From Sphingomonas crusticola (GTDB lineage Bacteria > Pseudomonadota > Alphaproteobacteria > Sphingomonadales > Sphingomonadaceae): a stretch of 64,000 nucleotides of DNA. How positions within the stretch are numbered: the first letter of the stretch is position 1; each line of letters starts with the position of its first letter. The stretch lies in the NCBI RefSeq assembly GCF_003391115.1, contig NZ_QTJP01000001.1, forward strand, positions 1,178,001 to 1,242,000, written 5' to 3'. The position numbers and the translations under genes were made by a program. The notes beneath the pieces are model-generated. The model did not search any database and was not told the origin of the DNA. It saw only the letters and a program-made list of their open reading frames with translations. Of the stretch, positions 6,322 to 33,079 are shown piece by piece.

Positions 6322-6402
6322 TTTCGGGAAATCCAGTCGGGGAGCGCGCGACGCGTAGAACGGGGCCGGAGGCGGGAGGCGGGAGGCTACGTCGCCGGCC
6401 GC

Positions 6403-6630: not shown

Positions 6631-6744
6631 GTCTCGATATTTACAAACGAAGGACGGCCACGAAAAGCTGCTGTTCCGCATCGTGAAAAGCCGGCGCAAA
6701 ACGGATCGGGTCGGACCGAATGGTCCGACCCGACCAGTGGGGGG

Positions 6745-8913: not shown

Positions 8914-9012
8914 CGGATCCTCCTGTTCGTGTCGGCGTCAGTCTGCACGTTTAGCCGGATGCGTTCGCGCTGTTTCGCCCGTCTCCGTCCCACGATGCAA
9001 AAAGCGGGCTGG

Positions 9013-11738: not shown

Positions 11739-11965
11739 GGCCGCCCTCCCCGCCTCCTGATCGCCGCCGCGTCTTTTCCGGCGATCATAGGCAAATGCCG
11801 TCGACCACCGCTTCAATACTCGATCCGCCCGGCCGAGGCCGGCACTAATCGATGCGTAGGCCCTGCGTGGCTAAACGCGCGGGAACTGACAAGCACCGCC
11901 CCGCAGCCGGCCGATGCTTTCCCGCATCGTGGACGAAGCGCGCCCCGGTTTGGGCCGGCAGGCGA

Positions 11966-13270: not shown

Positions 13271-13634
13271 CGTTATTCTCAATTCCAGCCGAGCGGCGAC
13301 TCTGTCATGGCCACGCAGATTCCGCAACGTAGTCGCGAATAAGGCGGCGCTCCTCCAGAGCAAGTGTGCAGAGTTTCCCGCGTGGTGGGATTCCTCGGAC
13401 CATTTATGATCGGGGCACTGATTATCGGCAGCACCAGTCAAAGCTCCGACTGCAATCTCATGGCCCGGAGGGCAAGGCAGCGACGCCGCGACCGAGTTGC
13501 TGGCGTCCCGTCAGGTGAGAAAGGTGGCCACCCGCGCTCGCCCGCCCGCGAGCCAAGTCATATCGCCATCGCGGCGCGAACATAAGCGTGAGCCTCGTCG
13601 CGCATCGCAATGGCACCCAGCCAGGAGAAGATGC
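13271..13634. promoter_or_regulatory. Divergent intergenic region (glycerate kinase / GHL2)
   Basis: About 360 bases between two divergently transcribed units. No convincing coding region, repeat or hairpin was seen. A good Shine-Dalgarno (AGGAG at 13623-13627) serves the ATG at 13635. The promoters for the kinase-permease-NHL-GHL1 operon and for GHL2 must lie here, but no operator could be picked out by eye. Confidence 0.5.
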
Positions 13635-15952: not shown

Positions 15953-16849
15953 TCAGACAATCTGATCGCGGCTCCCGGAGGCGTCGACCGAGTGCAGCGA
16001 GTGGATCAGTGCTGGCCAGCGCTGCAGGGCATTGCCGATCTCCGCTGCTGCATCTCTCAACAGCGGCAGGCGGGTCCGCACCAGCTCGTCCTGGGAGATG
16101 CGCGAGGTGGAGGTCGAACAATTGATCGCGGCCACCACGCGCCGCTGCGCGTCGAGGACTGGAACCGCCACGGAGACGAGACCATAATCGAGCTCGTCGA
16201 GCGCGGAATCGTAGCCGGTCTCGCGCACCGCGCGAAGCCTCGTCTCCAGCGCGCTGCGCGTGGTCACTGTTCTCTCGGTAAACCGCGCCATCACCGCACG
16301 ATCTAGATAAGCGGCGATGACCGGCTTATCCTGAAAGGCGAGCAGCACCTTGCCGAGCGAAGTTGCATGGAGCGGGAAGCGCGTGCCGACGGTGGCGCTT
16401 AGCCTGATCCGCCGATTGGTCGATACATGCGCGACATAGAGGATGTCGTCGCCCGAAAGCACGGCCATCGAACTACTGTCACCGGTCTCGTCGCGTAGCC
16501 CTTGCAGCGGCGGCAGGACAATTTGCTCGACGTTCATGGACGACAAATAGCTCGTGCCGAAGCTCAGGACTTCGGCCCGGAGCAGGAACTTGCGGCCATA
16601 TTGCGCCACATAGCCTAGCTGTACGAGCGTGTTCAGGCAGCGCCGTGCCACCGCCGGACTGAGCTTGGTAAGCTGCGCGACTTCGCTAAGTTGCATTTCC
16701 GGATGTTGCGCGTCGAAGGAGCGCAGCACGCGCAGGCCACGCTCAAGCGTCGAAAGATACTCGCTGTCCTTGGGCGGCTTCTCGGTAACGGCCATGGCCC
16801 GGGTTACTGACGCTGGCGACACAGGGCAAGTCGCTGCCACTCTCGCCAT
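15953..16849 (-). CDS. IclR-family transcriptional regulator
   Basis: Up to 298 residues. ATG 16849 lies 8 bases after the CoA-transferase stop; ATG 16795 (MAVTEKPPKDSEYL) would give 280 residues, nearer the family norm, and neither has a clear ribosome site. The N-terminal winged helix (LERGLRVLRSFDAQHPEMQLSEVAQ...) is followed by an IclR effector domain (FPLHATSLGKVLLAF, AINCSTSTSRIS). It resembles the PcaR/PobR branch, which controls aromatic or organic acid catabolism. It is the second gene of the CoA-transferase transcription unit. The paired palindromes at 18038-18069 in front of that unit, and the matching pair at 19398-19429, are its best candidate binding sites. Confidence 0.88.
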   Translation of the reverse strand: MARVAATCPVSPASVTRAMAVTEKPPKDSEYLSTLERGLRVLRSFDAQHPEMQLSEVAQLTKLSPAVARRCLNTLVQLGYVAQYGRKFLLRAEVLSFGTSYLSSMNVEQIVLPPLQGLRDETGDSSSMAVLSGDDILYVAHVSTNRRIRLSATVGTRFPLHATSLGKVLLAFQDKPVIAAYLDRAVMARFTERTVTTRSALETRLRAVRETGYDSALDELDYGLVSVAVPVLDAQRRVVAAINCSTSTSRISQDELVRTRLPLLRDAAAEIGNALQRWPALIHSLHSVDASGSRDQIV

Positions 16850-16856
16850 GCGGCCG

Positions 16857-18005
16857 TCATTCGGCCGCGGCTTTGACCGATCCTGGATCGGCTAGTGCAA
16901 CATTATGCTGGCCAAGCGTCGGCGGTGCGGTCACGTCCAGCATCGCTTCGCCGTCGAAAGACACCGGCGATCGGATCGTGCGGAAGACACCATGCGGTCC
17001 CGCTGGATCCTCGATGCACAGCTGCAGATGTTTTGCCTGCTCGGTCTCGATCACCTCAGGCGCGGAATAGACCGGTGAATGCGGCACTTCGAGCCGCTCC
17101 AGCACAGCACACCATTCGGCGCGTTTGCGGGCGGCGAAGATCGGTGCAAGAAACTCGACGATCTTGTCGTAATTGGCGATGCGCGCCGTTCGGCTGGCAA
17201 ATTCGTCGCGCCCAAGCATGTCAGGCCGGCCTACCGCCTCGGCAAGATTCTCCCAGAATTTGGGCGGCGAAGACATGTGCAGCGCTATCCAGCCGCCATC
17301 TGCGCATTGGAAGACATAGGATTGCGAGACGTTAGGGCGGCTATAAGGCCCCATCACCTGGCCTTCGGAGAAATAGTGGGTAAAATCGTCGAGGTTGAAG
17401 TGCGCCATCGCCTCGAACATCGACACTTCGACCAGCCGGCCCCGGCCGGTCTTCTCGCGCTCGTGCAGCGCGGCGAGCACGCCATAGGCGCCGTAAAAGC
17501 CAGTGATCGCATCGGCCAGCGCCGGCCCCACCACGCGTGGATTTTCGGGATTTACCAACAACCTCAAAAAGCCGCTTGCGGCCTGCGCGACCGTGTCGAA
17601 AGCGGGACGATCCTGATCCGGGCCGCCGGCGCCGAAACCTGAAATCGACAGATAGATCAGCCGCGGGTTGATCGCCTGCAGACGCGCGGCATCCACATTC
17701 AATTTGGCGGTGACGCCCGGCCGGAAATTCTGGATGAAGATATCCGCAGTGGCGATCATCCGGTCGAAGATGGCAAGATCGTCTGCCGCGCGCGTATCGA
17801 GGGTGACCGACCTTTTGTTGCGGTTATAGGTCTGGAAATGCGGGCTGTAGAAGCCCCCGTTGAATGCACGAAACGGGTCCCCGCCATCCGGCCGCTCGAT
17901 CTTGATCACGTCAGCGCCCATATCCCCGAGCAGCATCCCCGCCGCCGGACCGGTGATAAAAGTACCCATTTCCAGTACGGTGACGTCCGCGAGCGGCTTG
18001 GCCAT
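16857..18005 (-). CDS. Class III CoA-transferase (CaiB/BaiF family)
   Basis: 382 residues from ATG 18005, which has GAGGGAG at the right distance; the longer frame to 18161 runs over the operator and has no family match. Family III landmarks are GTFITGPAAGMLLGDMGADVIKIE (residues 15-38), NRNKRSVTLD, IQNFRPG, and LADAITGFYGAYG with the probable catalytic Asp at 165. These enzymes move CoA between carboxylic acids in the cytoplasm. The divergent neighbour is a citryl-CoA-lyase-like protein, so an attractive reading is that this enzyme activates a hydroxy-tricarboxylic or citramalate-like acid which the lyase then cleaves. That pairing is an inference from context. Confidence 0.88.
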   Translation of the reverse strand: MAKPLADVTVLEMGTFITGPAAGMLLGDMGADVIKIERPDGGDPFRAFNGGFYSPHFQTYNRNKRSVTLDTRAADDLAIFDRMIATADIFIQNFRPGVTAKLNVDAARLQAINPRLIYLSISGFGAGGPDQDRPAFDTVAQAASGFLRLLVNPENPRVVGPALADAITGFYGAYGVLAALHEREKTGRGRLVEVSMFEAMAHFNLDDFTHYFSEGQVMGPYSRPNVSQSYVFQCADGGWIALHMSSPPKFWENLAEAVGRPDMLGRDEFASRTARIANYDKIVEFLAPIFAARKRAEWCAVLERLEVPHSPVYSAPEVIETEQAKHLQLCIEDPAGPHGVFRTIRSPVSFDGEAMLDVTAPPTLGQHNVALADPGSVKAAAE

Positions 18006-18037
18006 ATTGACGACTCCCTCGCCCTGCGAGTAGAAAA

Positions 18038-18069
18038 TTCGATATACGAAATCAACTTCGTAAATCGAA
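18038..18069. promoter_or_regulatory. Paired TTCG-N5-CGAA operator, CoA-transferase/lyase side
   Basis: Two 13-bp palindromes, TTCGATATACGAA at 18038-18050 and TTCGTAAATCGAA at 18057-18069, have centres 19 bp apart and are separated by 6 bases. On the minus strand the linker reads GTTGAT, so a -35-like TTGATT falls between the boxes. The pair lies 32 bp upstream of the CoA-transferase ATG and 46 bp upstream of the divergent lyase-like ATG. The same layout recurs at 19398-19429. The likely binder is the IclR protein at 15953-16849. Confidence 0.65.
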
Positions 18070-18115
18070 TTTGTCTTTAGCAACGCCACGGCGGCCGGCT
18101 GAAAGGTAGCATTTA

Positions 18116-18928
18116 ATGCGGATTGGCAAGCAGGATGCGCCTTATACGGCGATCTGCACATCGGATGCGACCAGCATCACCGTGCGCGGCCACGATCTGT
18201 GCGGTGAGATTATCGGCCAGATGGATTTCACCAGCTATTTCTGGCTGCTGGTCACTGGGGAGGCGCCGAGCGAGGTCCAACGCTTCTTCGCTAATGCCGT
18301 GCTCGCTGCCATCGCGGAACACGGCTTGGTACCGAGCGTCGTCGCCGCCCGGATGACCTATGCCGCCGCCCCCGAAGCCTTTCATGGCGCGGTCGCGGCG
18401 GGTTTGCTCGGCTGCGGTTCGGTCGTGCTTGGCAGTGCAGAGATCGCCGGAAGATTTTACGCCGAACTCGTCGCGAAAGCTCAGCAAGGCGAGACCATTG
18501 AAGCCGTCGCGCGGGGCGGCATCAAGGACTTGCGCCGCGAGAAACGTGCGATCCCCGGCTTCGGGCATCCCCAGCACGCCGCCGGCGACCCGCGCGCGCT
18601 GTTGCTGCTGGACCTCGCCGAACGGCATGGGATCGTGGGCGCTCACATCCGTATGCTCTATGCGATCCGCGACGCATTGCCCGAGACGCTCGGCCGGCCT
18701 TTGCCGATCAACGTCAACGGCGCCATTCCCGCCGTGATGCTCGATGTCGGCTTCCCGGTGGGCGCGCTCAAGGGCATCTCGCTACTTGCACGCACCGCCA
18801 GCCTGATCGCGCATCTGAAGGAGGAAAGCGATCGGCCGATTGGGTTCATCATGTCGGGCGCAGCGGCGGCGGCTATCGACTATGATGGCGAGGCGGCCAC
18901 TGCCGGCCCGAGTACGGAGAACATATAA
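18116..18928 (+). CDS. Citrate-synthase-like protein (citryl-CoA-lyase type)
   Basis: 270 residues, much shorter than citrate synthase (about 430) but typical of the short proteins annotated citryl-CoA lyase. The start ATG follows AAAGG. The citrate synthase core is recognisable: an AFHGAVAAG helix near 88-96, and GFGHPQHAAGDPRA (148-161), where the GFGH His151 and the DPRA match the citrate synthase active-site loop. The large-domain N-terminus is missing. It probably cleaves (or forms) a tertiary hydroxyacyl-CoA such as citryl- or citramalyl-CoA. It is divergent from the class III CoA-transferase, with the shared operator between them. Its last codons overlap the 24-bp palindrome at 18921-18944. 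Confidence 0.75.
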   Translation: MRIGKQDAPYTAICTSDATSITVRGHDLCGEIIGQMDFTSYFWLLVTGEAPSEVQRFFANAVLAAIAEHGLVPSVVAARMTYAAAPEAFHGAVAAGLLGCGSVVLGSAEIAGRFYAELVAKAQQGETIEAVARGGIKDLRREKRAIPGFGHPQHAAGDPRALLLLDLAERHGIVGAHIRMLYAIRDALPETLGRPLPINVNGAIPAVMLDVGFPVGALKGISLLARTASLIAHLKEESDRPIGFIMSGAAAAAIDYDGEAATAGPSTENI

Positions 18929-18944
18929 AGATATCTTTATATGT
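18921..18944. promoter_or_regulatory. Perfect 24-bp palindrome, probable methionine-regulon operator
   Basis: The half-site ACATATAAAGAT is followed directly by its exact reverse complement. It overlaps the stop codon of the citryl-CoA-lyase-like gene and ends 3 bases before a TTGACA box, an ideal repressor position. From memory, AT-rich palindromes centred on AAAGATATCTTT are the motif of ArsR-type SahR/SamR regulators of methionine and SAM metabolism in Alphaproteobacteria; I could not check this. The cobalamin riboswitch just downstream fits that assignment. Confidence 0.55.
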
Positions 18945-18947
18945 CGA

Positions 18948-18977
18948 TTGACACGGCCGGTCAGGAGCGTGTTTAGG
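18948..18977 (+). promoter_or_regulatory. Candidate promoter of the riboswitch leader
   Basis: A consensus -35 TTGACA sits at 18948-18953. A weak -10 candidate lies at 18971-18977 (GTTTAGG) with 17-18 bases of spacing. Transcription from here would begin just before the cobalamin riboswitch. The -10 match is poor, so only the -35 is well supported. Confidence 0.4.
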
Positions 18978-19170
18978 CGGTGCGTCGAGGTTCTCCGCGC
19001 CAGTAACGGCGAGGAGCCAAGACGGGAAGCCGGTGGCACCCGCGAGGGTGGAGTCCGGCGCTGCCCCCGCAACTGTAAGCGGCGAGCGGCGGTCCATTCA
19101 GGGTCACTGGCGGCAATCGTCGGGAAGGCCGGGACCGACGCGCTGACCCGTAAGCCAGGAGACCTGCCTC
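18978..19170 (+). ncRNA. Cobalamin (adenosylcobalamin) riboswitch
   Basis: The conserved blocks occur in the right order: GAGGTTCTC at about 18987, GGGAAGCCGGTG at 19024-19035, GCTGCCCCCGCAACTGTAAG at about 19060-19079 followed by GCGGCGAG, CACTGGCGGCAATCGTCGGGAAGGC, then GACCCGTAAGCCAGGAGAC with CTGCC near 19145-19168. This is the standard B12 element. It should switch the downstream message off when cobalamin is plentiful. The first good open reading frame downstream is the TonB receptor at 19511, more than 300 bases away, with an additional operator in between. Boundaries are accurate to a few bases. Confidence 0.93.
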
Positions 19171-19281
19171 GTCGCGATAACGTTCCTCGGGCGGGGTGCC
19201 TCGGTGGATCGCCTGCGCGGCTCCACCCTTCTTAGCGTGGATCTCGACCGCGCATGCGCTCTGTCTTGGTCGTCGCCTGTT

Positions 19282-19375
19282 ACCAGGAGAGACGACATTG
19301 ACAGTTTTCCGAGCAAACCTTGCCTCAGCGTCGGCCACGGGCACTCGGCGCGAAGCCGCGTGGCGCAAAATCACC
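19282..19375 (+). pseudogene. Possible remnant of a metE 5' end behind the riboswitch
   Basis: A strong ribosome site (CAGGAGAG at 19284-19291) precedes TTGACAGTT at 19298. The frame from that TTG reads LTVFRANLASASATGTRREA and continues to AWRKI. It loosely resembles the start of cobalamin-independent methionine synthase (T-L-G-P-R-I-G-x-R-R-E-L-K) with the middle scrambled. That gene is a classic target of B12 riboswitches. The frame stays open into the TonB receptor, so an extended receptor N-terminus cannot be excluded, but the receptor signal peptide begins at 19511. This is a suggestion only. Confidence 0.25.
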
Positions 19376-19397
19376 CTTTCGTTTATCCGCAGTAAAC

Positions 19398-19429
19398 TTC
19401 GTATATCGAACTTGACTTCGCATGACGAA
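19398..19429. promoter_or_regulatory. Paired TTCG-N5-CGAA operator, TonB-receptor side
   Basis: TTCGTATATCGAA (19398-19410) and TTCGCATGACGAA (19417-19429) again have centres 19 bp apart with a 6-base linker CTTGAC. A -35-like TTGACT (19412-19417) lies between them, and AATTAT at 19436-19441 is a possible -10. The arrangement is the same as at 18038-18069. It gives the receptor operon its own regulated promoter downstream of the riboswitch. Confidence 0.65.
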
Positions 19430-19510
19430 GCGGGGAATTATGCGCAGGTCTTCGGTACGGTGATGCTTTGCCCAAAGAAGCGCGCCCCCGGGTCGAGAGA
19501 GGGGCGACTG

Positions 19511-21709
19511 ATGATGAAACGGGTATTCTCGGCGCGAGCCATTTTAGCGGGATCGCTGTCCCTGGCCGCCTTGGCAGCCTCCGCCCCGGCCGCCGCGCAG
19601 GATGTTCAGACGTCGCCGAGCAGCGAGGCGGACAGCAACGAGATCGTCGTGACTGCGCTCCGCCGCAACACGCGCCTTCAGGATACACCCGCCGCCATCA
19701 CCGCCTTCGATGCTAAGGCTATCGAATCCGCCGGCATCCAGCGGCCCGCCGACTTCGTCGCGCTGACGTCCAACGTCCAGCTGGTGGAAACGCAGAACGT
19801 CGGCAACGCCTTCGTGATCATCCGCGGCATCACCCAGAATCGCAATTCGGAGCCCTCGGTCGCGGTCGTCGTCGACGGGGTGCAGCAGGTCAATGCCGCC
19901 GAATTCAATCAGGAATTGTTCGACATCGAGCAGATCGAAATCCTTAAAGGCCCACAGGGCGGCCTCTACGGCCGCAACGCGATCGGCGGCGCGATCGTCA
20001 TTACCACGAAGGCGCCGACCGATACGCTCGAGGGCCGGATCATGGCCGGTATCGACAATGGTTTCGGCTATACCGTGCGCGCCGGGCTGAGCGGGCCGCT
20101 AAGCGACACGCTCAAATTCCGCGTGTCGGGCTCGTGGCGCGACACTAACGGCTATATACGCAATACCTACCTCGGCGAGGACGCCGATCCAGTTAAGGAC
20201 CTGTCCCTACGCGCAAAATTGCTGTGGCAGCCGACCGATGCGCTGAGCGTCGACCTGCGTGGCTTCTATTCGAAGCTAAAGACCCAGGCTTTTTATTACA
20301 ACATCGTCAGCGACGTTAACGACACGCACCTGCCGGTGCGCGTCAACAATGCCGGCATCGATAATCGCACCATCTACAACGCATCGGCGAAGATCGATTA
20401 CCAGGCCGATTGGGGTTCGATCCGATCCGTCACGTCCTATGACAAGGTCACCGAAATCCTCACCGGCGACGCGTTCGACTTCCTGCCGATCAAGGAATCG
20501 CTATTCTACTTCCTGCTGGGGACCGATCTCAATCAAAGCCAATATCTCAACGTCAAAGCGGTGAGCGAGGATCTGCGCATCTCCTCGCCCGACAAGCAGA
20601 AGTTGCAATGGTCAATCGGTACCTACCTTATCCATACCGACCGTTATATCTCGACCGGCAATCTGGTCGACACCGGTGCCGGCGTCTTCCCCGTCTATCG
20701 CACGCCGAGCACCAACCCGCTCAACCCGCAGGCGACCTTCCTCGCCGACAGCCAGAAGAATTTCGCGTGGGCAGTCTATGGCGGGCTTGGCTATGAATTC
20801 TCCGACGCACTGCGGATCGACAGCTCGCTTCGCTACGATCACGACCATCGCCGTAACACCACGCTGACGCCACCCGCCTTCATCCCGGTGGTGACGGGTT
20901 TCCCGGCCGGCACCTCCGGCGAAGTGCGCGGCGAATCCTTCTCGGCCTGGCAGCCCAAGGTCACCGTCACCTGGAAGCCCGAGAAGAATTTGACTGTTTA
21001 CGGCGGCTATAGCCGCGGCTTCCGTTCGGGCGGCTTCAACCAGACGGGTGTCGGTGCGGTCGCGGCGGGGACCGGCGTGGTCGGCGTTGGCGACGTCTAC
21101 AAGGCCGAGACGGCCGATACGTTCGAGCTCGGCTTCAAGAGCACGCTGCTCCACAATCTGATGACCTTCAACGCCAGCGCCTACACCACGCAGTCCAAGA
21201 ACGGCTATTTCTTCGTCTTCCTGGCGGCCAACTCGACCCAGAATCTGGGGAATGTGGCGAAGACCCGGCTGCGCGGTTTCGAGCTGGAGAGCACGCTTCA
21301 TCCCGCGCGCGGCCTGGACCTGAACGCGGCGCTCGGCCTCACCTATTCGAAGATCAAGAGCTTCCCCGATCCCACGGTGATCGGCAACGAAGCCCCGTTC
21401 ATCTCGCGCTATACGTTCAACCTTGGCGGCCAATATGAATCACGGTTGGGCGACAGCGATATGAAGGGCCGGCTGCGGATCGACTATCGCCGGATCGGGC
21501 GCACCTGGTTCGACGTACCCAATTCGACTTCGCGCGACCCCGTCGATCTGGTCGACGCCCGTGCCTCGGTCGAGCAGGGAAAGTGGACGCTCACCGCCTT
21601 TGCCGAAAATCTGTTCAACAAGAAATATAACGCGGAATTCTCGCCCGGGGGCTTCGTCTTCAAGGCGCGGCCGCGTGTCTACGGGCTGGAAGGCACGATC
21701 AAGTTTTAA
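19511..21709 (+). CDS. TonB-dependent outer-membrane receptor
   Basis: 732 residues from ATG 19511 (ATG 19514 is equally possible), with GAGAGGGG upstream. The signal peptide MMKRVFSARAILAGSLSLAA ends near AAAQ at residue 30. The plug domain follows: EIVVTALRRNTRLQDTPAAI near 45, VIIRGITQNRNSEPSVAVVVDGV, then GPQGGLYGRNAIGGAIVITTKAP. The rest is a 22-strand-type barrel ending in aromatic F. It is of the general iron-complex/FecA-like sphingomonad class and longer than BtuB (about 600 residues), so despite the cobalamin riboswitch a B12 substrate is not proven. It heads an operon of quinone reductase, VOC protein, hydrolase, two MetE-like proteins and PurU, and probably imports their substrate. 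Confidence 0.88.
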   Translation: MMKRVFSARAILAGSLSLAALAASAPAAAQDVQTSPSSEADSNEIVVTALRRNTRLQDTPAAITAFDAKAIESAGIQRPADFVALTSNVQLVETQNVGNAFVIIRGITQNRNSEPSVAVVVDGVQQVNAAEFNQELFDIEQIEILKGPQGGLYGRNAIGGAIVITTKAPTDTLEGRIMAGIDNGFGYTVRAGLSGPLSDTLKFRVSGSWRDTNGYIRNTYLGEDADPVKDLSLRAKLLWQPTDALSVDLRGFYSKLKTQAFYYNIVSDVNDTHLPVRVNNAGIDNRTIYNASAKIDYQADWGSIRSVTSYDKVTEILTGDAFDFLPIKESLFYFLLGTDLNQSQYLNVKAVSEDLRISSPDKQKLQWSIGTYLIHTDRYISTGNLVDTGAGVFPVYRTPSTNPLNPQATFLADSQKNFAWAVYGGLGYEFSDALRIDSSLRYDHDHRRNTTLTPPAFIPVVTGFPAGTSGEVRGESFSAWQPKVTVTWKPEKNLTVYGGYSRGFRSGGFNQTGVGAVAAGTGVVGVGDVYKAETADTFELGFKSTLLHNLMTFNASAYTTQSKNGYFFVFLAANSTQNLGNVAKTRLRGFELESTLHPARGLDLNAALGLTYSKIKSFPDPTVIGNEAPFISRYTFNLGGQYESRLGDSDMKGRLRIDYRRIGRTWFDVPNSTSRDPVDLVDARASVEQGKWTLTAFAENLFNKKYNAEFSPGGFVFKARPRVYGLEGTIKF

Positions 21710-21732
21710 CGCGCCCTAACCAAGGACGATAA

Positions 21733-22350
21733 GTGACCCGTATCCTGATCCTCTATTATTCGTCCTACGGCCACATCGAGACGATGGCGCACGCGGTTGC
21801 CGAGGGGGCACGCGGCGTGCCGGGATGCGAAGTGGTGTTGAAGCGCATTCCGGAAACAATGGCTGAGGCGCAGGCGCGCGCGGCAGGCATGAAGGTCGAA
21901 CAGGACGCGCCGATCGCGATCCCGGAAGAACTTGGCGATTATGATGCCATCATCTTCGGCACGCCGACCCGCTTCGGCAATATGGCGGCGCAGATGCGCA
22001 CCTTCCTCGACCAGACCGGGCCGCTGTGGATGACCGGCGCGCTGGTCGGGAAGGTCGGCAGCGTGTTTGCCAGCACGGCCAGCCAGCATGGCGGGCAAGA
22101 AACCACGATTACGTCGTTTCACACGACGCTATTCCACCATGGCATGGTCGTGGTCGGGCTGCCCTACAGCTTTGCCGGCAACACCATCATGACCGAAATC
22201 AGCGGTGGCACACCCTATGGCGCGACCACGATCGCGGGCGGGGACGGCAGCCGATTGCCAAGCGGCAACGAGCTTGCTGGCGCACGCTTCCAGGGTGATC
22301 ATGTCGCCAGAATAGCGCGCAAACTTGCGGCCACATCCCCTGCCGATTGA
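21733..22350 (+). CDS. WrbA-type NAD(P)H:quinone oxidoreductase
   Basis: 205 residues from GTG 21733. A flavodoxin-fold FMN enzyme: FMN-binding YYSSYGHIE near residue 8, [20 protein letters not shown] near 76-95, then [12 protein letters not shown] and [15 protein letters not shown], all typical of WrbA. WrbA proteins reduce quinones to hydroquinones by two electrons in the cytoplasm and form tetramers. It is second in the TonB-receptor operon, 23 bases after the receptor stop. In this setting it might keep an aromatic or quinone intermediate reduced for the next enzymes; that role is inferred from gene order. Confidence 0.88.
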
Positions 22351-22372
22351 CCGACCCGATAGGAGCCCGACC

Positions 22373-22924
22373 ATGAACGCCTCCCTCCCCAGCCGCCTTC
22401 ACCACACCGCCTATGTCTGCAAGGATCTGGAAGCGACCCGGCATTTCTACGAGGATATCCTCGGCTTCCCGCTGGTCGCCACCTGGTGCGAGCAGGAGGA
22501 ATTGTTCGGCAAGGAGCGCACCTATTGCCACTGCTTCTTTGGCCTAGCCGATGGCAGCGCGCTCGCCTTCTTCACCTTTGCCGACGCCGACGATCAGGCC
22601 GAATTCGGGCCCGAGCTCCCGCCCAGCCCGTTTCGCCACATCGCGCTCAACGTCGATGCGGCGTTGCAGGCCGATCTGGAGCGGCGGATCATCGAAGCGG
22701 GTATCGAGCCGCCGGGACGTTATGTCCTCGAACATGGCTATTGCCGGTCGATCTACGTGGTCGATCCCGACGGCATGATCGTGGAATTCACATGCGATTC
22801 GGTACGCGCGGACGAGATCAACGCCGCACGCCTGAAGGATGCCCATTCGGAACTGAAGCGGTGGCTGGCGGGCGATCATCGTCCGAACAATGACGTGCGG
22901 CACATCCTTGAAGGCGCGCGGTGA
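22373..22924 (+). CDS. VOC-superfamily (glyoxalase/dioxygenase-fold) protein
   Basis: 183 residues from ATG 22373, with AGGAG upstream. Two beta-alpha-beta-beta-beta modules are visible. Candidate metal ligands are the His of LHHTAYVCKDLEATRHFYEDILGF style module 1, the His of FRHIALNV in module 2, and the Glu of MIVEFTCD near the end, giving a 2-His-1-Glu set. Such proteins include extradiol dioxygenases, glyoxalase I and epimerases. The pair of aromatic residues and several cysteines near residues 37-50 (TWCEQEELFGKERTYCHC) is unusual. In an operon with a quinone reductase and an alpha/beta hydrolase, ring cleavage is a plausible role, but the reaction cannot be assigned from sequence. Confidence 0.75.
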   Translation: MNASLPSRLHHTAYVCKDLEATRHFYEDILGFPLVATWCEQEELFGKERTYCHCFFGLADGSALAFFTFADADDQAEFGPELPPSPFRHIALNVDAALQADLERRIIEAGIEPPGRYVLEHGYCRSIYVVDPDGMIVEFTCDSVRADEINAARLKDAHSELKRWLAGDHRPNNDVRHILEGAR

Positions 22925-22957
22925 GGCCCGACACGCCCCGAACCCTTAGCCACCGCA

Positions 22958-23776
22958 ATGCAGGGGGCTGAGCCGGCCCCCGTCCGCCGTGTGGTACCGA
23001 TCATGCGGCATGTCGATGTCGATGTCGGTGACGGCGCGCTCCGCACGCTTGTCGCGGGTGCGGGGCCGGAGGTCGTCATGCTGCATGGTTGGACGCTCGA
23101 TCACCGCAGTTGGTTGCCGCAGCTGCCGCTGGCCGATGAGTTCCGTCTCGTGCTTCCCGATCGCCGTGGCTTCGGGCGCTCGACGGCACCAGCTGGCCTG
23201 GCGGCCGAATGGCGCGATGTCGATTGCCTGGTCGACAGCGACCCGTTCGTCCTGGTCGGTCTTTCGCAAGGCGCCAGCGTGGCGCTCGATTATGCCCGCC
23301 ACAGGCCGAGCCGGCTGGCGGCGCTGGTCCTCGTCGGGGCTCCGCTTCATGGCGCTGTAGCGCATCAGGACGCGGAGCGGCTTATACCGCGCGATCACTA
23401 TGCCGAGCTGGTGCGGACGGGACAGCTGGCGGCGATGAAGTCCGACTGGGCCGCCCATCCGTTGGTCCGCGCCAGCCCCGCCGCCGCGCCGCTGCTCGCC
23501 GCCATGTTGAACGACTATGACGGACGCGACCTCCTGGAGCGCTCCGGCCCGATTGCGATCCGCCTGGCCGACATTGCCGCGCTGCCAATGCCCGTGCTGG
23601 CGATTGCCGGCACGAAGGACACCGAATGGCGGCGACGTATTGCTCAGTTCATTGGCGTCACCGCGCCCCGTGGACAGGCTGCCGTGATCGACGGTGCCGG
23701 GCACCTCTGCAATCTCGACAATCCTGGCCGGTTCAACCTGATCCTGGCCGAATTTCTTTCCTCGATCCTCCATTAA
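22958..23776 (+). CDS. Alpha/beta-fold hydrolase
   Basis: 272 residues from ATG 22958; ATG 23003 (MRHVDVDVGDG) would give 257 and neither has a good ribosome site. The fold landmarks are MLHGWTLDHRSW (oxyanion HG near 43), GLSQGAS with nucleophile Ser103, GTKDTEW with the acid Asp, and GAGHLCNLDNP with the catalytic His. Family members hydrolyse esters, lactones or C-C bonds of meta-cleavage products. It lies 33 bases after the VOC gene and 15 before the first MetE-like gene. No signal peptide, so it acts in the cytoplasm. Substrate unknown. Confidence 0.85.
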   Translation: MQGAEPAPVRRVVPIMRHVDVDVGDGALRTLVAGAGPEVVMLHGWTLDHRSWLPQLPLADEFRLVLPDRRGFGRSTAPAGLAAEWRDVDCLVDSDPFVLVGLSQGASVALDYARHRPSRLAALVLVGAPLHGAVAHQDAERLIPRDHYAELVRTGQLAAMKSDWAAHPLVRASPAAAPLLAAMLNDYDGRDLLERSGPIAIRLADIAALPMPVLAIAGTKDTEWRRRIAQFIGVTAPRGQAAVIDGAGHLCNLDNPGRFNLILAEFLSSILH

Positions 23777-23791
23777 AGGGCCCGATCCGCC

Positions 23792-24814
23792 ATGCTCCTC
23801 CCTACTTCGCTCGTCGGCTCTTACACCCAGCCCGATTGGCTGATCGACAAGGTCAAGCTCGCCGGCCGCTTCCCGCCGCGCGTGCGCGCGACCGAATTGT
23901 GGCGCGTCGCTCCGGAATGGCGCGAGCAGGCATTCGACGATGCAACCATCCTGGCAATCCGCGATCAGGAGCGGGCCGGCCTCGACATTATCACCGATGG
24001 CGAGATGCGCCGCGAAAGCTATTCGAACCGGTTCGCAACCGCGCTGGAAGGGGTTGATCTGGACAATCCCGGAGTGGCGCTCGATCGCAGCGGGGAGCCT
24101 AACCCGGTTCCTCGCGTGACCGGCAAGATCCGCCGTAAGCATGCGGTGGAAACGCGCGACGTCGCTTTCCTGCGTGCCAATACCGATCGCATGATCAAGA
24201 TCACCGTGCCCGGGCCCTTCACGATGGCACAACAGGCGCAGAATGATTTCTACGCCGACGAAGCCGAAATGGCCCACGATTATGCCGTCGCCGTCAATGC
24301 CGAGATCAAGGACTTGTTCGACGCCGGCGCCGACATCGTCCAGATCGACGAGCCCTATATGCAGGCACGTCCCGAAAAGGCGCGCGCGTTCGGCCTGGCG
24401 GCCTTGAAGACCGCGCTGGAGGGCGTCACGGGGCGCACCGCTTTGCATATCTGCTTCGGCTATGCCGCGCTGATCCATGAGCGGCCCGAGGGCTATAATT
24501 TCCTGCCCGAACTTGCCGACACCGACCTCAACGACATCTCCATCGAGACCGCCCAGTCGAACCTGGACTGCCGCATCCTCGACAAGCTCACCGGCAAGAC
24601 GATCATTCTCGGCGTGCTCGATCTTTCGACGCACGAGATCGAGAGCCCCGAGACGGTGGCAAGCCGCATCCGTCGCGCGTTGCCCCACGTCGCTGCCGAA
24701 CGGCTGGTGATCGCGCCGGATTGCGGGCTCAAATACCTGCCGCGCGACGTCGCCTTCGGCAAGATGAAGGCGATGGCGGACGGTGCCGCGATCGTGCGGG
24801 CAGAAATCGCATGA
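23792..24814 (+). CDS. Short MetE-like zinc methyltransferase-family protein A
   Basis: 340 residues: it matches only the C-terminal catalytic half of cobalamin-independent methionine synthase (MetE, about 750 residues). The zinc ligands are kept, His219-x-Cys221 (LHICFGY) and Cys311 (PDCGL), and so is IDEP with Glu187. The N-terminal folate-binding half is absent. Short homologues include core-MetE methyltransferases and epoxyalkane:CoM transferase, all of which activate a thiol on zinc. Its stop overlaps the start of protein B as ATGA, so the two are made together and may form a pair. The presence of PurU downstream suggests folate one-carbon chemistry. The methyl donor and thiol acceptor are unknown. 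Confidence 0.8.
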   Translation: MLLPTSLVGSYTQPDWLIDKVKLAGRFPPRVRATELWRVAPEWREQAFDDATILAIRDQERAGLDIITDGEMRRESYSNRFATALEGVDLDNPGVALDRSGEPNPVPRVTGKIRRKHAVETRDVAFLRANTDRMIKITVPGPFTMAQQAQNDFYADEAEMAHDYAVAVNAEIKDLFDAGADIVQIDEPYMQARPEKARAFGLAALKTALEGVTGRTALHICFGYAALIHERPEGYNFLPELADTDLNDISIETAQSNLDCRILDKLTGKTIILGVLDLSTHEIESPETVASRIRRALPHVAAERLVIAPDCGLKYLPRDVAFGKMKAMADGAAIVRAEIA

Positions 24815-25947
24815 GCGCAGGGCGTTTCCTCACCACCCACGTCGGCAGCCTGCCGCGTCAGGACGATCTGATCGCTTTGATGTTCGCCAAGGAAGAAGGG
24901 TTGCCGCTCGATCCCGCTGCCGTCGCAGCACGGATCGAAGAGGCGGTCGACCATGTCGTTACCAAACAGGCCGAGGCCGGGGTCGACATCGTCAATGATG
25001 GTGAACAATCGAAGCCAAGCTACGCGACCTATATCAAGGATCGGCTGAACGGCTTCGGCGGAACCGGCAACAGCTATGTGTTTGCCGACGTTGAGGACTT
25101 CCCTGGCGTCAAGGCGCGGATCACTGGCGATGCCGGCCGCAAGCATCGCAAGACCCCCGCCTGCAACGCACCCATCACGGTCAAGGACATGACGGCGGTG
25201 GAGCGCGACACGCAGACGCTCAACGCCTCGGTTGCGCGGCACGAGGGGCATCAAGCCTTCATGAGCGCGGCCTCGCCGGGCGTGACCGCCTTGTTCTTCG
25301 CCAACGAATATTATGACAGCGACGAAGACTATCTGTTCGCACTCGCAGAGGGATTGCGGCACGAATATGAGGCGATCGCCGCCGCGGGCATCACGCTGCA
25401 GATCGACTGCCCCGATCTCGCCATGGGGCGCCACACCCAGTTCCGCGATCTGACGCTCGCCCAGTTCCGCGACCGGATGATGCTCAATATCGAAGCACTC
25501 AATCGCGCCACGATCAACATTCCGGAAAGTCAGCTGCGCATGCACATGTGCTGGGGCAATTATCCCGGGCCGCACCATTGCGACGTGCCATTCAAGGACA
25601 TCATCGATCTGGTGTGGCGCGCCCGGCCGCACGCCATCCAGTTCGAAGCGGCCAATCCACGCCATGCGCATGAATTCGAGATGTTCGAGGGCAATGGCGT
25701 GCCGGAGGGCAAGGTGCTGATCCCCGGCGTTGTCGAATGCCAGTCAAACTATATCGAACATCCCGAACTGATCGCCCAGCGCATCGGCCGCTACGCCGAT
25801 CTGGTCGGGCGCGACAATGTGATGGCGGGGGTCGATTGCGGCTTCTCGGTCCACGTCGGATCGGGCGGGGTCGATCGCGACATCGTCTGGGCCAAGCTCG
25901 CCGCACTGGCCGAGGGCGCCCGGCTGGCGAGCGCGAAATATTGGTAA
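24811..25947 (+). CDS. Short MetE-like zinc methyltransferase-family protein B
   Basis: 378 residues from ATG 24811, overlapping the stop of protein A by 4 bases; the longer frame from 24721 is the shadow of A. It opens with FLTTHVGSLPR, typical of the methionine-synthase-II-like family. Zinc ligands are His245-x-Cys247 (MHMCWGN) and Cys343 (VDCGFS). Where protein A and MetE have IDEP, this protein reads IDCPDLA (198-204), so an active-site acid is replaced. It also has a long insertion around residues 85-145 rich in charged residues. The two proteins are diverged rather than recent duplicates and may act on different steps or as a heteromer. Confidence 0.8.
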   Translation: MSAGRFLTTHVGSLPRQDDLIALMFAKEEGLPLDPAAVAARIEEAVDHVVTKQAEAGVDIVNDGEQSKPSYATYIKDRLNGFGGTGNSYVFADVEDFPGVKARITGDAGRKHRKTPACNAPITVKDMTAVERDTQTLNASVARHEGHQAFMSAASPGVTALFFANEYYDSDEDYLFALAEGLRHEYEAIAAAGITLQIDCPDLAMGRHTQFRDLTLAQFRDRMMLNIEALNRATINIPESQLRMHMCWGNYPGPHHCDVPFKDIIDLVWRARPHAIQFEAANPRHAHEFEMFEGNGVPEGKVLIPGVVECQSNYIEHPELIAQRIGRYADLVGRDNVMAGVDCGFSVHVGSGGVDRDIVWAKLAALAEGARLASAKYW

Positions 25948-25988
25948 GACGACCGCGCTTCCTGTGAACCGACGCGGGACCTGCATCC

Positions 25989-26846
25989 ATGAACGACAGC
26001 TACATCCTTACTTTGTCCTGCCTCGATCATCCCGGCATCGTGGCGGCGGTTTCGACTGTGCTCGCCCGCCACGGCGCCAACATCCTTGAGGCGCAGCAAT
26101 TCGATGACCTGCTGTCGGGACGCTTCTTCATGCGTGTCGAATTCGTCTTGATCGAAGGCGCGCCATATCAGGCGCTACGCGATGCGTTTGACGAGGTGGC
26201 CGCCGACCACGATCTGACCTTCAGCATGCGCGCCGCCAGCCATCGCAAGCGCGTATTGCTGCTGGTCAGCAAGTTCGACCATTGCCTCGCCGACCTGATG
26301 TACCGCTGGAAGATCGGTGAGCTGGCGATGGAGCCGGTCGGCATCATCTCCAATCACCCGCGCGAGACTTTTGCCCACCTCGATTTCGCCGGAGTGCCCT
26401 TCCACCATCTCGCCTTTAGCGAGCCGGGAAAAACGACGCAGGAGGCGCAAATACGGGCCATCGCCGAGGAAACCGGCGCCGAGCTGATCGTGCTGGCGCG
26501 GTTCATGCAAATTTTGTCCGACGATCTGGCGGAAGCGTTTGCCGGCCGCTGCATCAATATCCACCACAGCTTCCTGCCCGGCTTCAAGGGTGCCAAACCC
26601 TATCATCAGGCGCACCGCCGCGGGGTGAAGCTGATCGGCGCCACCGCCCATTTCGTAACGGCCGAGCTCGACGAAGGGCCGATCATCGAGCAGGACGTGG
26701 AGCATGTCAGCCACCGTGACACGCCGAACGATCTGGTGCGCAAAGGCCGGGAAATCGAGCGGCGCGTGCTGGCACGCGCGGTGCGCGCGTACCTCGAGGA
26801 TCGCGTGCTCCTGAATGGCGGCACGACGGTGGTGTTCGCGGAATAA
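25989..26846 (+). CDS. purU: Formyltetrahydrofolate deformylase
   Basis: 285 residues, the normal PurU length. An N-terminal ACT domain ([20 protein letters not shown]) precedes the formyltransferase-fold domain with [20 protein letters not shown], the catalytic [17 protein letters not shown] and the [20 protein letters not shown] segment. PurU hydrolyses 10-formyl-THF to formate and THF. In Sphingobium lignin degraders PurU-type genes accompany folate-dependent O-demethylation, where it regenerates THF. Here it is the last gene of the TonB-receptor operon, 41 bases after MetE-like B, which ties that operon to one-carbon release. Confidence 0.93.
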
Positions 26847-26880: not shown

Positions 26881-28959
26881 TCAGTTCAGCAATTTGAACC
26901 GGATCGCCTGGCCCCCGCCAGGCGCCAGAGCCAGCGTCAAACTATCCTTGCTGGTGACAACCTGCTTCGCAATTTCCAAAGCAAGCGGGTTCGTGCGGTA
27001 ATCCGCGCCCGGCCCGTCGCGGTAGATCTGCGCTTCATAGCGCCGGCCCGGCGTCAGGAAGGACAATGGCTGCGTCAGCGTGCGCGCGGTCTCGTCGCTC
27101 AACGCACCCAGAAACCAGTCCTTACCGCCGCGCGCCAGCCGGGCCACGACGACATAGTCGCCGACTTCGCCCTGCAATGTTCGCGATGTCTCCCAATCGG
27201 TCGGTACGTCGCGGATGAACTGGAACGCGCCCATGTGTTTCAGGTAGTTTTCGGGCAGGTCGGCTGCCATCTGGATCGGGCTGTACAGCACGACATATTC
27301 GGCGAGCTGGACCGCCAATGTCGACTGCACGCGCCGCGTAAGCTCCGTCTGGCCATGCTCGATGTCGAATATGCCCGGCGTGAAATCCATTGGCCCGCTC
27401 AACATGCGCGTGAAGGGCAGGATCACAACATGTTCCGGCGGATTGGTCGGGATACCCCAGGCATTATATTCCTGACCTCGCGCCCCTTCTCGGGCGACCA
27501 TGTTGGGCCAGGTGCGGCGAAGGCCGGTATCCTTGACCGGCTCATGGGCATCGATCGCAATGCGATGCGCGGCAGCGACCTGGGCTACGTGCAGATTGTG
27601 CCGCACGACATATTGGCCGGCGAACCATTGCAGGCCGCCCTGCTCGTCGACGATGTCGCCGCTGTGATGGACATAACCGGTCTTCACGATCGGGATGCCG
27701 ACCTGCTCATACAACGTCATCGCGGCATCGAGCTGGCGTTCGTAATTAGGGATCGCGCCCGCCGTTTCGTTATGCCCGATCAGTGCGACCCTCAATTTCT
27801 TGCCATAGGCGGTGATGCCAGGCAGGTCGAAATCGGGGTAAGGCTTGGTGAAACTGAACTTGTCGCCATTATCGATCCAGGATCCGTCCCAACCCTCGTT
27901 CCAGCCTTCGACGAGGACGCCGCTGAAGCCATATTTCGCGGCGAAATCGATGTAGCTTTTGACGTTGGCGGTGTTGGCACCATGCTTCGGCCCGCTGCCC
28001 CAAGTGGTGCGGTTGAGATGCATTTCCCACCATACGCCGACATATTTACCGGGTTTGAACCAGCTCTGGATGTCCGCCAGCTTGCTGGGCTCATTGAGGT
28101 TGAGTTCGATCCGGCTGTCGGCAAGCGCGCCTGCGCTTTCGCCGACCAGCATCGTCCGCCACGGCGTGGTGAAGGGCCCGGTCTTGTGGGCGAGTACCCC
28201 GTCCGGCCAGGGCATCAGCCAGGCGGTGAGCGTGCCGGCGCCGTCGCCGCGCAGCAGCATGCTCGGGAAGTCGACGAGAGCTGCTTCGTGGAAGGACAGG
28301 TAAAGCCCGTTCTTGTCGCCGCGTAACGTCAACGGGGTCTCAGCAAGCGTGACCCGGCGCGCGTCGGTCTGCGCGTAGAGATATTCGTCGCGCTCCTGAC
28401 CGAGCCCTTCATACCACCAAGCCTGATAAGGCCCGACCACGCGAAACTGGCTACGGTCGGCGGAAACCGCGACATCCTGTCCCGCCGGGATCGCGCCATA
28501 AGTGTAGCGAAAGCCGATGCCATCATCGAACAGGCGAAAGGTGACGTCGACCTCTTTATTAAAGCGCGTATCGCCAGCCAATGTAACCGTCAGCTCTTCG
28601 TGATTATCCCGGATCAAGCGTTGCTCGCCCCATGGCTGTTCCCACGTCACGTCCGCACGCGCGCGACGCGGATTGGAAAGCGCGGTGTATCGAGCGTCGG
28701 GTTCCCCCCGGAAGCTCAAGCCCAGGGCGGACGGCGCCAGCACTGTCATGCCATTGCGACTGACCTGATAGAGTGCCTGACCATTTTCGACCCAGACGCA
28801 GAGCTCGATCACCTTGCCGGGCGATTGGGCGCATTCGCGGGGGGCGGCATCCGCCGTGGCGGCGATCCCGAACATGACAAACAGGGCAAGGATACGAAGC
28901 CTCATCGAGGTCGATCGCTTTCTGGAGGCGCGCATGTCGCTGGTGAAATGACGGCTCAT
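26881..28959 (-). CDS. GH97 family glycoside hydrolase (alpha-glucosidase type)
   Basis: 692 residues from ATG 28959, which overlaps the cupin stop as ATGA; ATG 28905 (MRLRILALF) is an alternative that gives a tighter signal peptide and 674 residues. An N-terminal beta-sandwich domain precedes a TIM barrel with the GH97 signatures GVWWEMHL, GVLVEGWNEGWDGSW, LIGHNETAGAIPNYE, KTGYVHHSGDIVDEQGG, and the acidic DAHEPVKDTG and REGARGQEYNAWG segments that in inverting SusB-type enzymes supply catalytic and calcium-binding glutamates. A C-terminal beta domain follows. GH97 enzymes release glucose (or galactose) from alpha-linked oligosaccharides in the periplasm. The acid-rich pattern favours alpha-glucosidase, matching a maltodextrin locus. 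Confidence 0.93.
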   Translation of the reverse strand: MSRHFTSDMRASRKRSTSMRLRILALFVMFGIAATADAAPRECAQSPGKVIELCVWVENGQALYQVSRNGMTVLAPSALGLSFRGEPDARYTALSNPRRARADVTWEQPWGEQRLIRDNHEELTVTLAGDTRFNKEVDVTFRLFDDGIGFRYTYGAIPAGQDVAVSADRSQFRVVGPYQAWWYEGLGQERDEYLYAQTDARRVTLAETPLTLRGDKNGLYLSFHEAALVDFPSMLLRGDGAGTLTAWLMPWPDGVLAHKTGPFTTPWRTMLVGESAGALADSRIELNLNEPSKLADIQSWFKPGKYVGVWWEMHLNRTTWGSGPKHGANTANVKSYIDFAAKYGFSGVLVEGWNEGWDGSWIDNGDKFSFTKPYPDFDLPGITAYGKKLRVALIGHNETAGAIPNYERQLDAAMTLYEQVGIPIVKTGYVHHSGDIVDEQGGLQWFAGQYVVRHNLHVAQVAAAHRIAIDAHEPVKDTGLRRTWPNMVAREGARGQEYNAWGIPTNPPEHVVILPFTRMLSGPMDFTPGIFDIEHGQTELTRRVQSTLAVQLAEYVVLYSPIQMAADLPENYLKHMGAFQFIRDVPTDWETSRTLQGEVGDYVVVARLARGGKDWFLGALSDETARTLTQPLSFLTPGRRYEAQIYRDGPGADYRTNPLALEIAKQVVTSKDSLTLALAPGGGQAIRFKLLN

Positions 28960-30005
28960 GGCGTTTTCAGGAAGGCCATCAGCAATTGCTGCTTGAGTGC
29001 CGCCCGTGCACGCGGTGTCATCCGCCCGAGCGCGCCACGCAGTTCTTCGGGAATGTGCGCGACGGCATCGCCATGGCCTCCGAACACATGCGCGTCGAAC
29101 ATGGCGCGCCAATAAGCGCGCTCGCCCTGCGGCAAATGTTTGAAGGCAAGCAAGGCCGCTAGGAATGCATCGTTTGGCCGCTCGAGCCCGGTGGCGTCGT
29201 CGCCCCACCAATAATTGACCATAGCGTTGAAGGGATCGAGGGAACTGACGTGGTGCCACCAATATTTCGGGATGAACAATGCGTCGCCCGGCTCCAGCCA
29301 CGCCACCTGCGCGGCCGCGATCGCGCTCGTATAATCGGGAAAGCGCTCCAGGTCGGGCCTATCGGGGTCGACCAGCGATAGCGGCGGCGGATTGTCGAGC
29401 GGGCCGACGTAAAGGTTGGTTACCTGCTCAGGCGGAAACAGCAGGAACCGCCGCCGGCCCGCGATCACACAGGCGAGATTATGATCACGGTCGTTATGCG
29501 TCTGAGTGCGTACCGCGCCCCCGATCCAGAGCCGCGGCTCAACTTCGCGCGGCAATAACGGCATTGGATTTTGGGCGACGAAATCGGGCAGGCTTTCCAC
29601 CAGCGGCAGCATCTGCATTGCCACGAATGGTGCATTGGGTAACGCCAGGTTGCGCAGGATCCGGTCGAGCGTCTCGCTGATCCTGGCGCGTCGCTTGGTA
29701 AAGCTGAATTCGCGCATGTCGGGCCCGTAGTCGAACCGGCCACCGCTTTTGACCGGCGCCTCCATCACCGGCGCGGGCGCACCCCGATCCATCGCTTTGA
29801 GGTAACGCGTCAGGGCAGCGGGCGATTGGCGGCCGGCGGTGAGCGCAGGCCAGCGATCGAACAGGCCTTTGAGCACGACTGGCTGCTCGGTTTCGACGAG
29901 CGCCGCGAATTCCGCCGGGCTCTGCGCGCCCCGCGACATGACGCGCGGCAAGGCTTCGATGTCACCAGCGCGGACGGTGCGATCGATGTGCACGAGCTCA
30001 CCCAT
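28956..30005 (-). CDS. Cupin-8 / JmjC-like 2-oxoglutarate oxygenase-fold protein
   Basis: 349 residues from ATG 30005, overlapping the stop of the upstream halogenase-like gene by 8 bases. The cupin-8 core has LWIGGAVRTQTHNDRDHN (His and Asp of the HxD iron motif near 165-176), FLLFPPEQ, then AWLEPGDALFIPKYWWHHV with the distal His. These residues are consistent with Fe(II)/2-oxoglutarate hydroxylase chemistry. In Caulobacter- and Xanthomonas-type glycan loci, such cupins regularly sit with a tryptophan halogenase and a TonB receptor; their substrate is not known. No signal peptide is visible. Confidence 0.82.
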   Translation of the reverse strand: MGELVHIDRTVRAGDIEALPRVMSRGAQSPAEFAALVETEQPVVLKGLFDRWPALTAGRQSPAALTRYLKAMDRGAPAPVMEAPVKSGGRFDYGPDMREFSFTKRRARISETLDRILRNLALPNAPFVAMQMLPLVESLPDFVAQNPMPLLPREVEPRLWIGGAVRTQTHNDRDHNLACVIAGRRRFLLFPPEQVTNLYVGPLDNPPPLSLVDPDRPDLERFPDYTSAIAAAQVAWLEPGDALFIPKYWWHHVSSLDPFNAMVNYWWGDDATGLERPNDAFLAALLAFKHLPQGERAYWRAMFDAHVFGGHGDAVAHIPEELRGALGRMTPRARAALKQQLLMAFLKTP

Positions 30006-33014: not shown

Positions 33015-33079
33015 CGCCGTTTCCCCAAAATCTGCGCCGCCATAGCTAGGCCATGGCGGCGCTAGTCTCCTTGGGAGGA

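Follow-up and report, generated by a model that had tools for sequence, protein, structure and literature searches.

What kind of pathway would need a quinone reductase, a putative ring-cleaving enzyme, two relatives of methionine synthase and a citryl-CoA-lyase-like enzyme (CoA, coenzyme A) in one place? This question is raised by a gene cluster in a 64,000-nucleotide (nt) stretch of Sphingomonas crusticola DNA, hereafter the window (assembly GCF_003391115.1, contig NZ_QTJP01000001.1, positions 1,178,001 to 1,242,000). An earlier note had described a catabolic system at window positions 16857–26846, in which a methylated compound is imported, demethylated by two MetE-like proteins with folate as methyl carrier, and cleaved to acyl-CoA units. 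We find support for a catabolic unit, and the core idea of a demethylating aromatic pathway holds, but its folate part does not. Our tentative reading, to which we give somewhat less than an even chance, is a catabolic unit under IclR control whose substrate is a hydroquinone-type aromatic acid with an O-methyl (or other methyl) group.

A conserved cluster with a shared operator

Open reading frame (ORF) calling and Pfam and NCBIfam searches confirmed all nine genes named in the earlier note, each in the family given there: seven co-directional genes at 19511–26846 and a divergent pair, the CoA-transferase gene coaT (16857 to about 18005, minus strand) and the lyase-like gene ccl (18116–18928, plus strand). 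See Table 1 for all features. The seven genes are separated by 23 nt (tonB-wrbA), 22 nt (wrbA-voc, taking 22373 as the start of voc), 33 nt (voc to the hydrolase gene abh), 15 nt (abh-metA) and 41 nt (metB-purU), and metA and metB overlap by 4 nt. The coaT ORF opens at 18161; judging from homologue matches, we placed its start at M53 (about 18005), where homology begins. The range of the earlier note stopped short of the first gene of the cluster, an IclR-family gene at 15953–16849. Its product scores 253.6 bits against TIGR02431 (PcaR/PcaU/PobR), under the cut-off of 284.75, and so is not assigned to that subfamily.

The two promoters had been said to share an operator architecture, and they carry the same 32-bp element, TTCGN5CGAA-N6-TTCGN5CGAA, with 0 mismatches at both. 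It consists of two palindromes 19 bp apart, at 18038–18069 and 19398–19429. Genome-wide, at up to one mismatch, it occurs only at these two promoters, and a reversed-pattern control had no match in this genome. At the same stringency the operator is found in 35 of 51 loci with a metB of at least 60% identity versus 1 of 29 loci with a metB below 60%. It also precedes metB where that gene is detached, with up to one mismatch in L063, L067, L068 and L180 and two to three in L074 and L076–L078, and it precedes a detached voc in L064, L135, L138 and L180. Three composition shuffles of the window and 49 loci (0.96 Mb) gave 2–3 matches at up to three mismatches. The IclR protein would act at both promoters by binding these palindromes. 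In genome G363 (L178, site at 8072), an extra operator with one mismatch lies at the start of a gene for a transporter of the major facilitator superfamily (MFS); a small gene and a cytochrome P450 gene are divergent from it, and these genes may be further members of the regulon.

We surveyed 396 Sphingomonadales genomes for relatives of the cluster. A metB relative was found in 75 at E ≤ 1e-10; at 60% identity or more, metB is present in 36 genomes, the lyase in 42 and the VOC-fold (vicinal oxygen chelate) protein in 40. All 36 metB genomes, from which G005 (metB fragments only) was excluded, also carry VOC and the lyase; VOC lies no more than 15 kb from metB in 35 of them and the lyase in 34. 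Four genomes (G043, G049, G063 and G067) have VOC and the lyase and no metB. The co-occurrence of metB and voc far exceeds chance, with a Fisher p of 5e-47, though this figure overstates independence because the genomes are related. Table 1 gives the gene counts for the 51 metB-anchored loci and for the 31 "long" loci among them, which have 9 kb or more on each side. Among the 29 loci with metB below 60%, most of the module is found only in L099, from a Lysobacterales bacterium. Gene order is reshuffled between lineages, and the linkage is therefore kept despite shuffling. Among cultivated relatives, Marinicaulis flavus SY-3-19 (L054) has all nine core genes, whereas Sphingorhabdus rigui DSM 29050 (L044) has no MetA next to MetB. 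We conclude that the genes are real and that most of them belong to a single conserved regulon, in which MetA and the hydrolase are optional. The co-occurrence that the earlier note proposed to look for thus holds for MetB with VOC and largely for WrbA (28/51), but fails for PurU (1/51).

Predicted ring opening and lower pathway

The AlphaFold model of the VOC protein (mean predicted local distance difference test score, pLDDT, 88) is closest to PDB entry 9u42, with a Foldseek E value of 1.3e-12, a template modelling (TM) score of 0.69 and a profile E value of 4.4e-17. That entry is a small VOC protein, titled homogentisate 1,2-dioxygenase from Acinetobacter with a Zn ion, with the molecule named Glyoxalase; our literature search did not find its publication. 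Residues H69, H105, H137, Y144 and E154 (numbered from the ORF start at 22325) are kept in 57/57 VOC sequences and H27 in 56/57. We take these His, Tyr and Glu residues, matched to those of BphC, to be at the positions expected of a ring-cleaving dioxygenase. The exact PROSITE extradiol pattern was found in 0/57; without its first two positions it matches 51/57, which we did not use as proof. On the structural model, the VOC protein likely opens the ring of a hydroquinone-type compound, and such a substrate is our best guess because the best match is 9u42 and WrbA is conserved beside VOC. Of the VOC/hydrolase ring-cleavage pair suggested earlier, the VOC half is supported as a likely ring-cleaving enzyme; the hydrolase (22/51 loci) is optional.

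The genome also holds a second cluster (L115; G000:C1:2932000-2950000, 4520–12676) with a TonB receptor, a hydrolase, a VOC protein 48% identical to that of the window, a MetE-like protein (51% to MetA), a short-chain dehydrogenase/reductase (SDR), an enoyl-CoA hydratase and a carboxyltransferase. It has no copy of the operator.

The ccl product scores 309.9 bits against NF004868 (cut-off 193), which places it by sequence in the citryl-CoA lyase subfamily, and it matches the citryl-CoA lyase 6hxp at E 7.8e-28. The role of the CoA-transferase and lyase as a lower pathway, as first suggested in the earlier note, is supported by the company that they keep. Such a pair adjoins an annotated extradiol dioxygenase on a Martelella plasmid, an annotated intradiol dioxygenase, a hydroxylase and LeuCD on a Burkholderia glumae plasmid, and a gene annotated "dioxygenase" in Cupriavidus; on Aminobacter pUSP2, ccl, the CoA-transferase gene and a LigB dioxygenase adjoin a metA homologue. 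In Niveispirillum the unit adjoins genes of the protocatechuate 4,5-cleavage type, and no full-length MetE-like gene is present in either stretch read there (16.5 kb and 22.5 kb). In a stretch of 16.5 kb from Rhodococcus, a unit combines VOC, lyase and CoA-transferase with a LigXa-type Rieske protein and lacks MetE; LigX is an O-demethylase. The lyase is not always beside a ring-cleavage gene, as an Agrobacterium stretch lists neither a dioxygenase nor a CoA-transferase (the plasmid gene table is incomplete).

The MetE-like proteins and the methyl group

MetA (340 aa) and MetB (378 aa) are 25% identical to each other. The zinc ligands of MetE (H641, C643, E665 and C726) and its homocysteine-binding residues (S433, E484 and D599; numbering as in PMC7857596) are all kept in 73/73 MetB sequences of at least 60% identity and 38/38 MetA sequences of at least 57%. 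At 40–60% identity, a set of 37 MetB sequences that counts the window copy shows E665 in 32 and the remaining six residues in all 37. A search of the genome for the N-terminal folate domain of MetE (PF08267) gave 0 matches (controls positive in 10/14), and one for MesX (PF08908) also gave 0, with positive controls W01 and W02 matching. In a comparison limited to two mesX-linked MesD proteins, MetA is 34–36% and MetB 22–24% identical; assignment to MesD goes by identity to ACIAD3523 (about 55% or more). The MetB model (pLDDT 91) resembles MetE with methyl-tetrahydrofolate (methyl-THF) or homocysteine, and 3rpd with selenomethionine, a structure termed a MesD protein in PMC7857596. From residue conservation, MetA and MetB most likely act as homocysteine-dependent methyltransferases, in line with the thiol methyltransferases of the earlier note.

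The neighbours of MetE-like genes elsewhere give this activity a context. In G122 (L191) a metA homologue is surrounded by genes for LigB, LigC and a Rieske protein of the LigXa type. A distant VOC (31–35%) lies within 3 kb of the metA homologue in 8/14 other loci, mostly of one genus, compared with 1 VOC in 31 comparison loci (476 kb); G185 was excluded, as the stretch fetched misses its metA. MetB homologues (45%) occur in three clusters with a GcvT-family protein, metF and purU, two of which also have ligAB. We presume that these GcvT-family proteins, recorded as aminomethyltransferase family or glycine cleavage T barrel, are LigM-like. Taken together, these neighbours suggest a part in removing methyl groups during aromatic breakdown. 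Two Roseobacter loci (L131 and L129) have MetB homologues (47–48%) with SnoaL-type ester cyclases, histidinol dehydrogenase and a cupin; L131 adds an RraA family protein, and the gene at the matching place in L129 is annotated demethylmenaquinone methyltransferase. These loci are a further catabolic context, as yet uncharacterised, in which MetB-like proteins occur.

Folate as the methyl carrier finds no such backing: the conserved residues are of the homocysteine type, and PurU (at least 40% identity) is in 0/31 long loci and 1/51 overall (L075), which excludes it as a core member. L079 has a partial PurU match at 36%, below the threshold. PurU and MetB homologues meet again in the GcvT-type clusters. 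Pfam searches found no GcvT-family methyltransferase in the operon, which is thus not of the LigM/DesA THF-dependent O-demethylase type. The only GCV_T protein of the genome, about 2.6 kb from metH and beside an ORF of GcvH size (judged by size only), is probably a housekeeping GcvT.

From gene content, conservation, operator, residues, predicted folds and leader, we infer the catalytic steps, substrate and methyl acceptor as follows. The TonB receptor would bring the compound in, WrbA would hold the diol in its reduced state, and the VOC protein would open the ring with O2. The hydrolase, where present, would cut an ester or C-C bond. MetB, joined by MetA where present, would pass a methyl group to zinc-bound homocysteine to give methionine, without folate or corrinoid; the methyl could come from the substrate or, more easily, from an enol ether left after ring cleavage. 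The CoA-transferase and the citryl-CoA-lyase-like enzyme would split a hydroxy acid, with an acyl-CoA and a keto acid as the products.

Several observations speak against this pathway. Homocysteine as a stoichiometric acceptor is costly for bulk catabolism. The lyase or VOC is absent from 5/31 long loci (L040, L052, L065, L079 and L083), and the VOC model also matches glyoxalase and Fos folds. The two MetE-like proteins of the earlier note are both in the window but are not a general pair, as 14/36 genomes have MetA no more than 15 kb from MetB and 22/36 do not. Eight annotated settings of MetB homologues (43–48%) comprise three of aromatic O-demethylation and five of other kinds. In MetE-less loci, hydratase-type LeuCD accompanies the lower pathway (L126, L127 (LeuC), L136 (LeuD only) and L137), or neither MetE nor LeuCD is in the stretch read (L120, L135, L138 and L139); the MetE-like step is therefore not essential to the module. 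As for the operator, the reversed pattern has one match each in G372 and G067, G123, G158 and G030 have no operator site, and the site in G019 is on a different contig from the cluster and probably due to chance, which leaves 24/28 genomes, not 25.

A methionine-type leader before the TonB operon

The stretch from 18922 to about 19212 is a leader in which a SahR-like palindrome is followed by an intact cobalamin riboswitch, both overlooked in the earlier note, which had the operators right. The aptamer scores 110.4 bits against a gathering score of 31.5 for RF00174, well within that family. The palindrome, CATATAAAGATATCTTTATATG, is perfect; the genome has two further sites, with 2 and 3 mismatches, one at the 5' end of a metF-metH operon and one 36–37 nt upstream of metK. 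According to PMC4239095, a 20-bp palindrome controls methionine genes in alpha-proteobacteria, and we call ours SahR-like by analogy with that system and not from a match to its motif. The leader is 76–78% identical to those before mesX-mesD in Novosphingobium P6W and Sphingomonas NY01, with 78% over 307 nt for one of them.

Either the leader is a relic or the operon was recently recruited to the methionine regulon. We give nearly an even chance to the first, in which the leader is left from a lost mesX-mesD locus, has no bearing on the operon, and IclR is the sole regulator. The riboswitch was in 0/7 relatives scanned (among the 51 metB loci), on which we rejected it as a conserved part; the resemblance to the mesX-mesD leaders stops near 19212, 19186–19395 has no match in the plasmid collection, and the IclR-type promoter sits between leader and tonB. 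Against a relic, the palindrome is perfect, the aptamer is intact, and neither a MetE N-domain nor MesX was found in the genome. A frame from 19298 looked by eye like a 5' remnant of metE between leader and tonB; a phmmer search against PDB chains found nothing, the stretch has no plasmid match, and we dropped this idea. If the operon was recruited, with read-through from the leader, the TonB operon of this strain may also supply methionine when vitamin B12 is short. We regard as doubtful the fuller proposal that corrinoid- and folate-free demethylases of the MetE fold give an aromatic methyl, labilised by O2-dependent ring cleavage, directly to homocysteine, with the pathway of this strain under the B12/S-adenosylhomocysteine (SAH) methionine regulon.

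Other roles for the MetE-like proteins

The main rival to methyl transfer is another step on the ring-cleavage product, the step of LeuCD in other clusters, by other zinc-thiol or zinc chemistry (hydration, isomerisation or alkyl transfer). The MetE-fold epoxyalkane:coenzyme M (CoM) transferase is a precedent. Some loci that lack MetB but have this same lower pathway carry LeuC or LeuD, and leuC (at least 40% identity) is in 0/51 and 0/29 of the named metB loci. However, this exclusion counts four LeuC/LeuD loci, and a 43-aa LeuD-like match lies at the end of the metA locus L148. Methyl transfer is favoured over hydration because the three homocysteine-binding residues, which a hydratase would not need, are invariant, and we consider this rival unlikely.

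A further rival, also improbable, makes MetA and MetB ordinary methionine synthases that draw on methyl-THF, methyl-B12 or a donor like that of MesX. They would accompany the operon and reuse methyl groups that are released elsewhere, with any demethylation left to other enzymes. For this rival, every methionine-synthase residue is kept, a methionine-type leader precedes the operon in this strain, the genome has neither MetE N-domain nor MesX, and MetB homologues adjoin a GcvT-family protein, metF and purU, but both proteins lack the folate-binding domain, the catabolic operator precedes MetB even when detached, MetB is tied to VOC and lyase, the riboswitch is missing from the relatives scanned, and the genome has metF-metH and a sole, probably housekeeping, GCV_T protein.

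Features of the window

Table 1. Features of the cluster in window coordinates, with gene counts in loci anchored on metB at 60% identity or more (thresholds in brackets where given).
Feature	Position	Strand	Basis	51 loci	31 long loci
IclR-family regulator, like PcaR/PcaU/PobR	15953..16849	-	PF01614 + PF09339	33	23
Class III (CaiB/BaiF) CoA-transferase	16857..18005	-	PF02515, 354 bits	38	27
Double-palindrome operator, coaT/ccl divergent promoter	18038..18069	.	0 mismatches
Citryl-CoA-lyase-like protein (citrate synthase C-domain fold)	18116..18928	+	NF004868; 6hxp	39	27
SahR-like palindrome CATATAAAGATATCTTTATATG	18922..18943	.	Perfect palindrome
Cobalamin riboswitch aptamer	18971..19185	+	RF00174, 110.4 bits, E 8.9e-27
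Double-palindrome operator of TonB operon	19398..19429	.	0 mismatches; -35-like TTGACT (19412) between palindromes
TonB-dependent receptor	19511..21709	+	PF00593 + PF07715	31 (at least 40%)	22
WrbA NAD(P)H:quinone oxidoreductase	21733..22350	+	TIGR01755, 313.5 bits, cut-off 132.5	28 (at least 60%)	20
VOC-fold protein, proposed hydroquinone-type ring-cleaving dioxygenase	22373..22924	+	PF00903; model pLDDT 88; best match 9u42	38	27
Alpha/beta hydrolase, variable	22958..23776	+	PF12697	22 (at least 35%)	16
MetA, MetE-like, related to MesD (34–36%)	23792..24814	+	PF01717; 3rpd, E 3.8e-54	22	15
MetB, second MetE-like protein, more widely kept than MetA	24811..25947	+	PF01717; model pLDDT 91		
PurU formyltetrahydrofolate deformylase, local addition	25989..26846	+	TIGR00655, 327 bits, cut-off 285.95	1	0

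The flanks of the cluster (6745–15932 and 26881–36529) are a carbohydrate-utilisation neighbourhood, with GHL6 glycosidases, a lactate permease, a MOFRL family protein, GH97, a cupin and two tryptophan halogenases. Four flank proteins were compared and had no match within the relatives' loci.

Comparison with known systems

The cluster is a defined unit for an aromatic pathway, with one regulator, one operator and two promoters, and it is widespread among bacteria of soil and water: it occurs in many Alphaproteobacteria and partly in one Lysobacterales and one Rhodococcus record. We found no description of a pathway with this gene set in the literature searched, which covers subscription papers poorly. 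Ring-cleavage operons of the hydroquinone, homogentisate and gentisate type have a quinone reductase, a non-haem dioxygenase, a hydrolase and an IclR regulator, as does the window unit. Unlike them, it has a single-domain dioxygenase of the VOC type, a CoA-transferase and citryl-CoA-lyase-like end, and MetE-like enzymes. Clusters for THF-dependent aryl O-demethylation of the LigM/DesA type share a MetB homologue, IclR, purU and a place in sphingomonad aromatic catabolism; the window operon differs in having no GcvT-family demethylase, metF or ligAB, and in homocysteine as its predicted acceptor. Aryl methyl groups are known to be removed by oxygenases, P450s, and THF or corrinoid methyltransferases. 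The window unit suggests a way in which MetE-like proteins, whose usual annotation is methionine synthase, could serve as demethylases. If our reading is true, it would add to these routes; under the fuller, doubtful proposal, methoxyaromatics would be a methionine source for this strain when B12 is lacking.

Our reading, if true, would also bear on the methyl donors of folate-independent methionine synthases. MesD/MesX is such a synthase (Price 2021, PMC7857596). It resembles the window system in its short MetE-like enzyme, its zinc and homocysteine residues and its aerobic setting, and MetA is a relative of MesD. In contrast, the window genome has no MesX, and its MetE-like genes are tied to an aromatic ring-cleavage and CoA pathway. 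By analogy, the fuller proposal, if true, would hint at how the MesD/MesX methyl donor arises. Bmt couples demethylation of dimethylsulfoniopropionate (DMSP) or betaine to methionine synthesis (PMC12366255), and MtgC/MtgD acts with glycine betaine and uses cobalamin (PMC12478193). In both, as predicted for the window unit, a catabolised methyl group ends on homocysteine, but they belong to other enzyme families and act on non-aromatic substrates.

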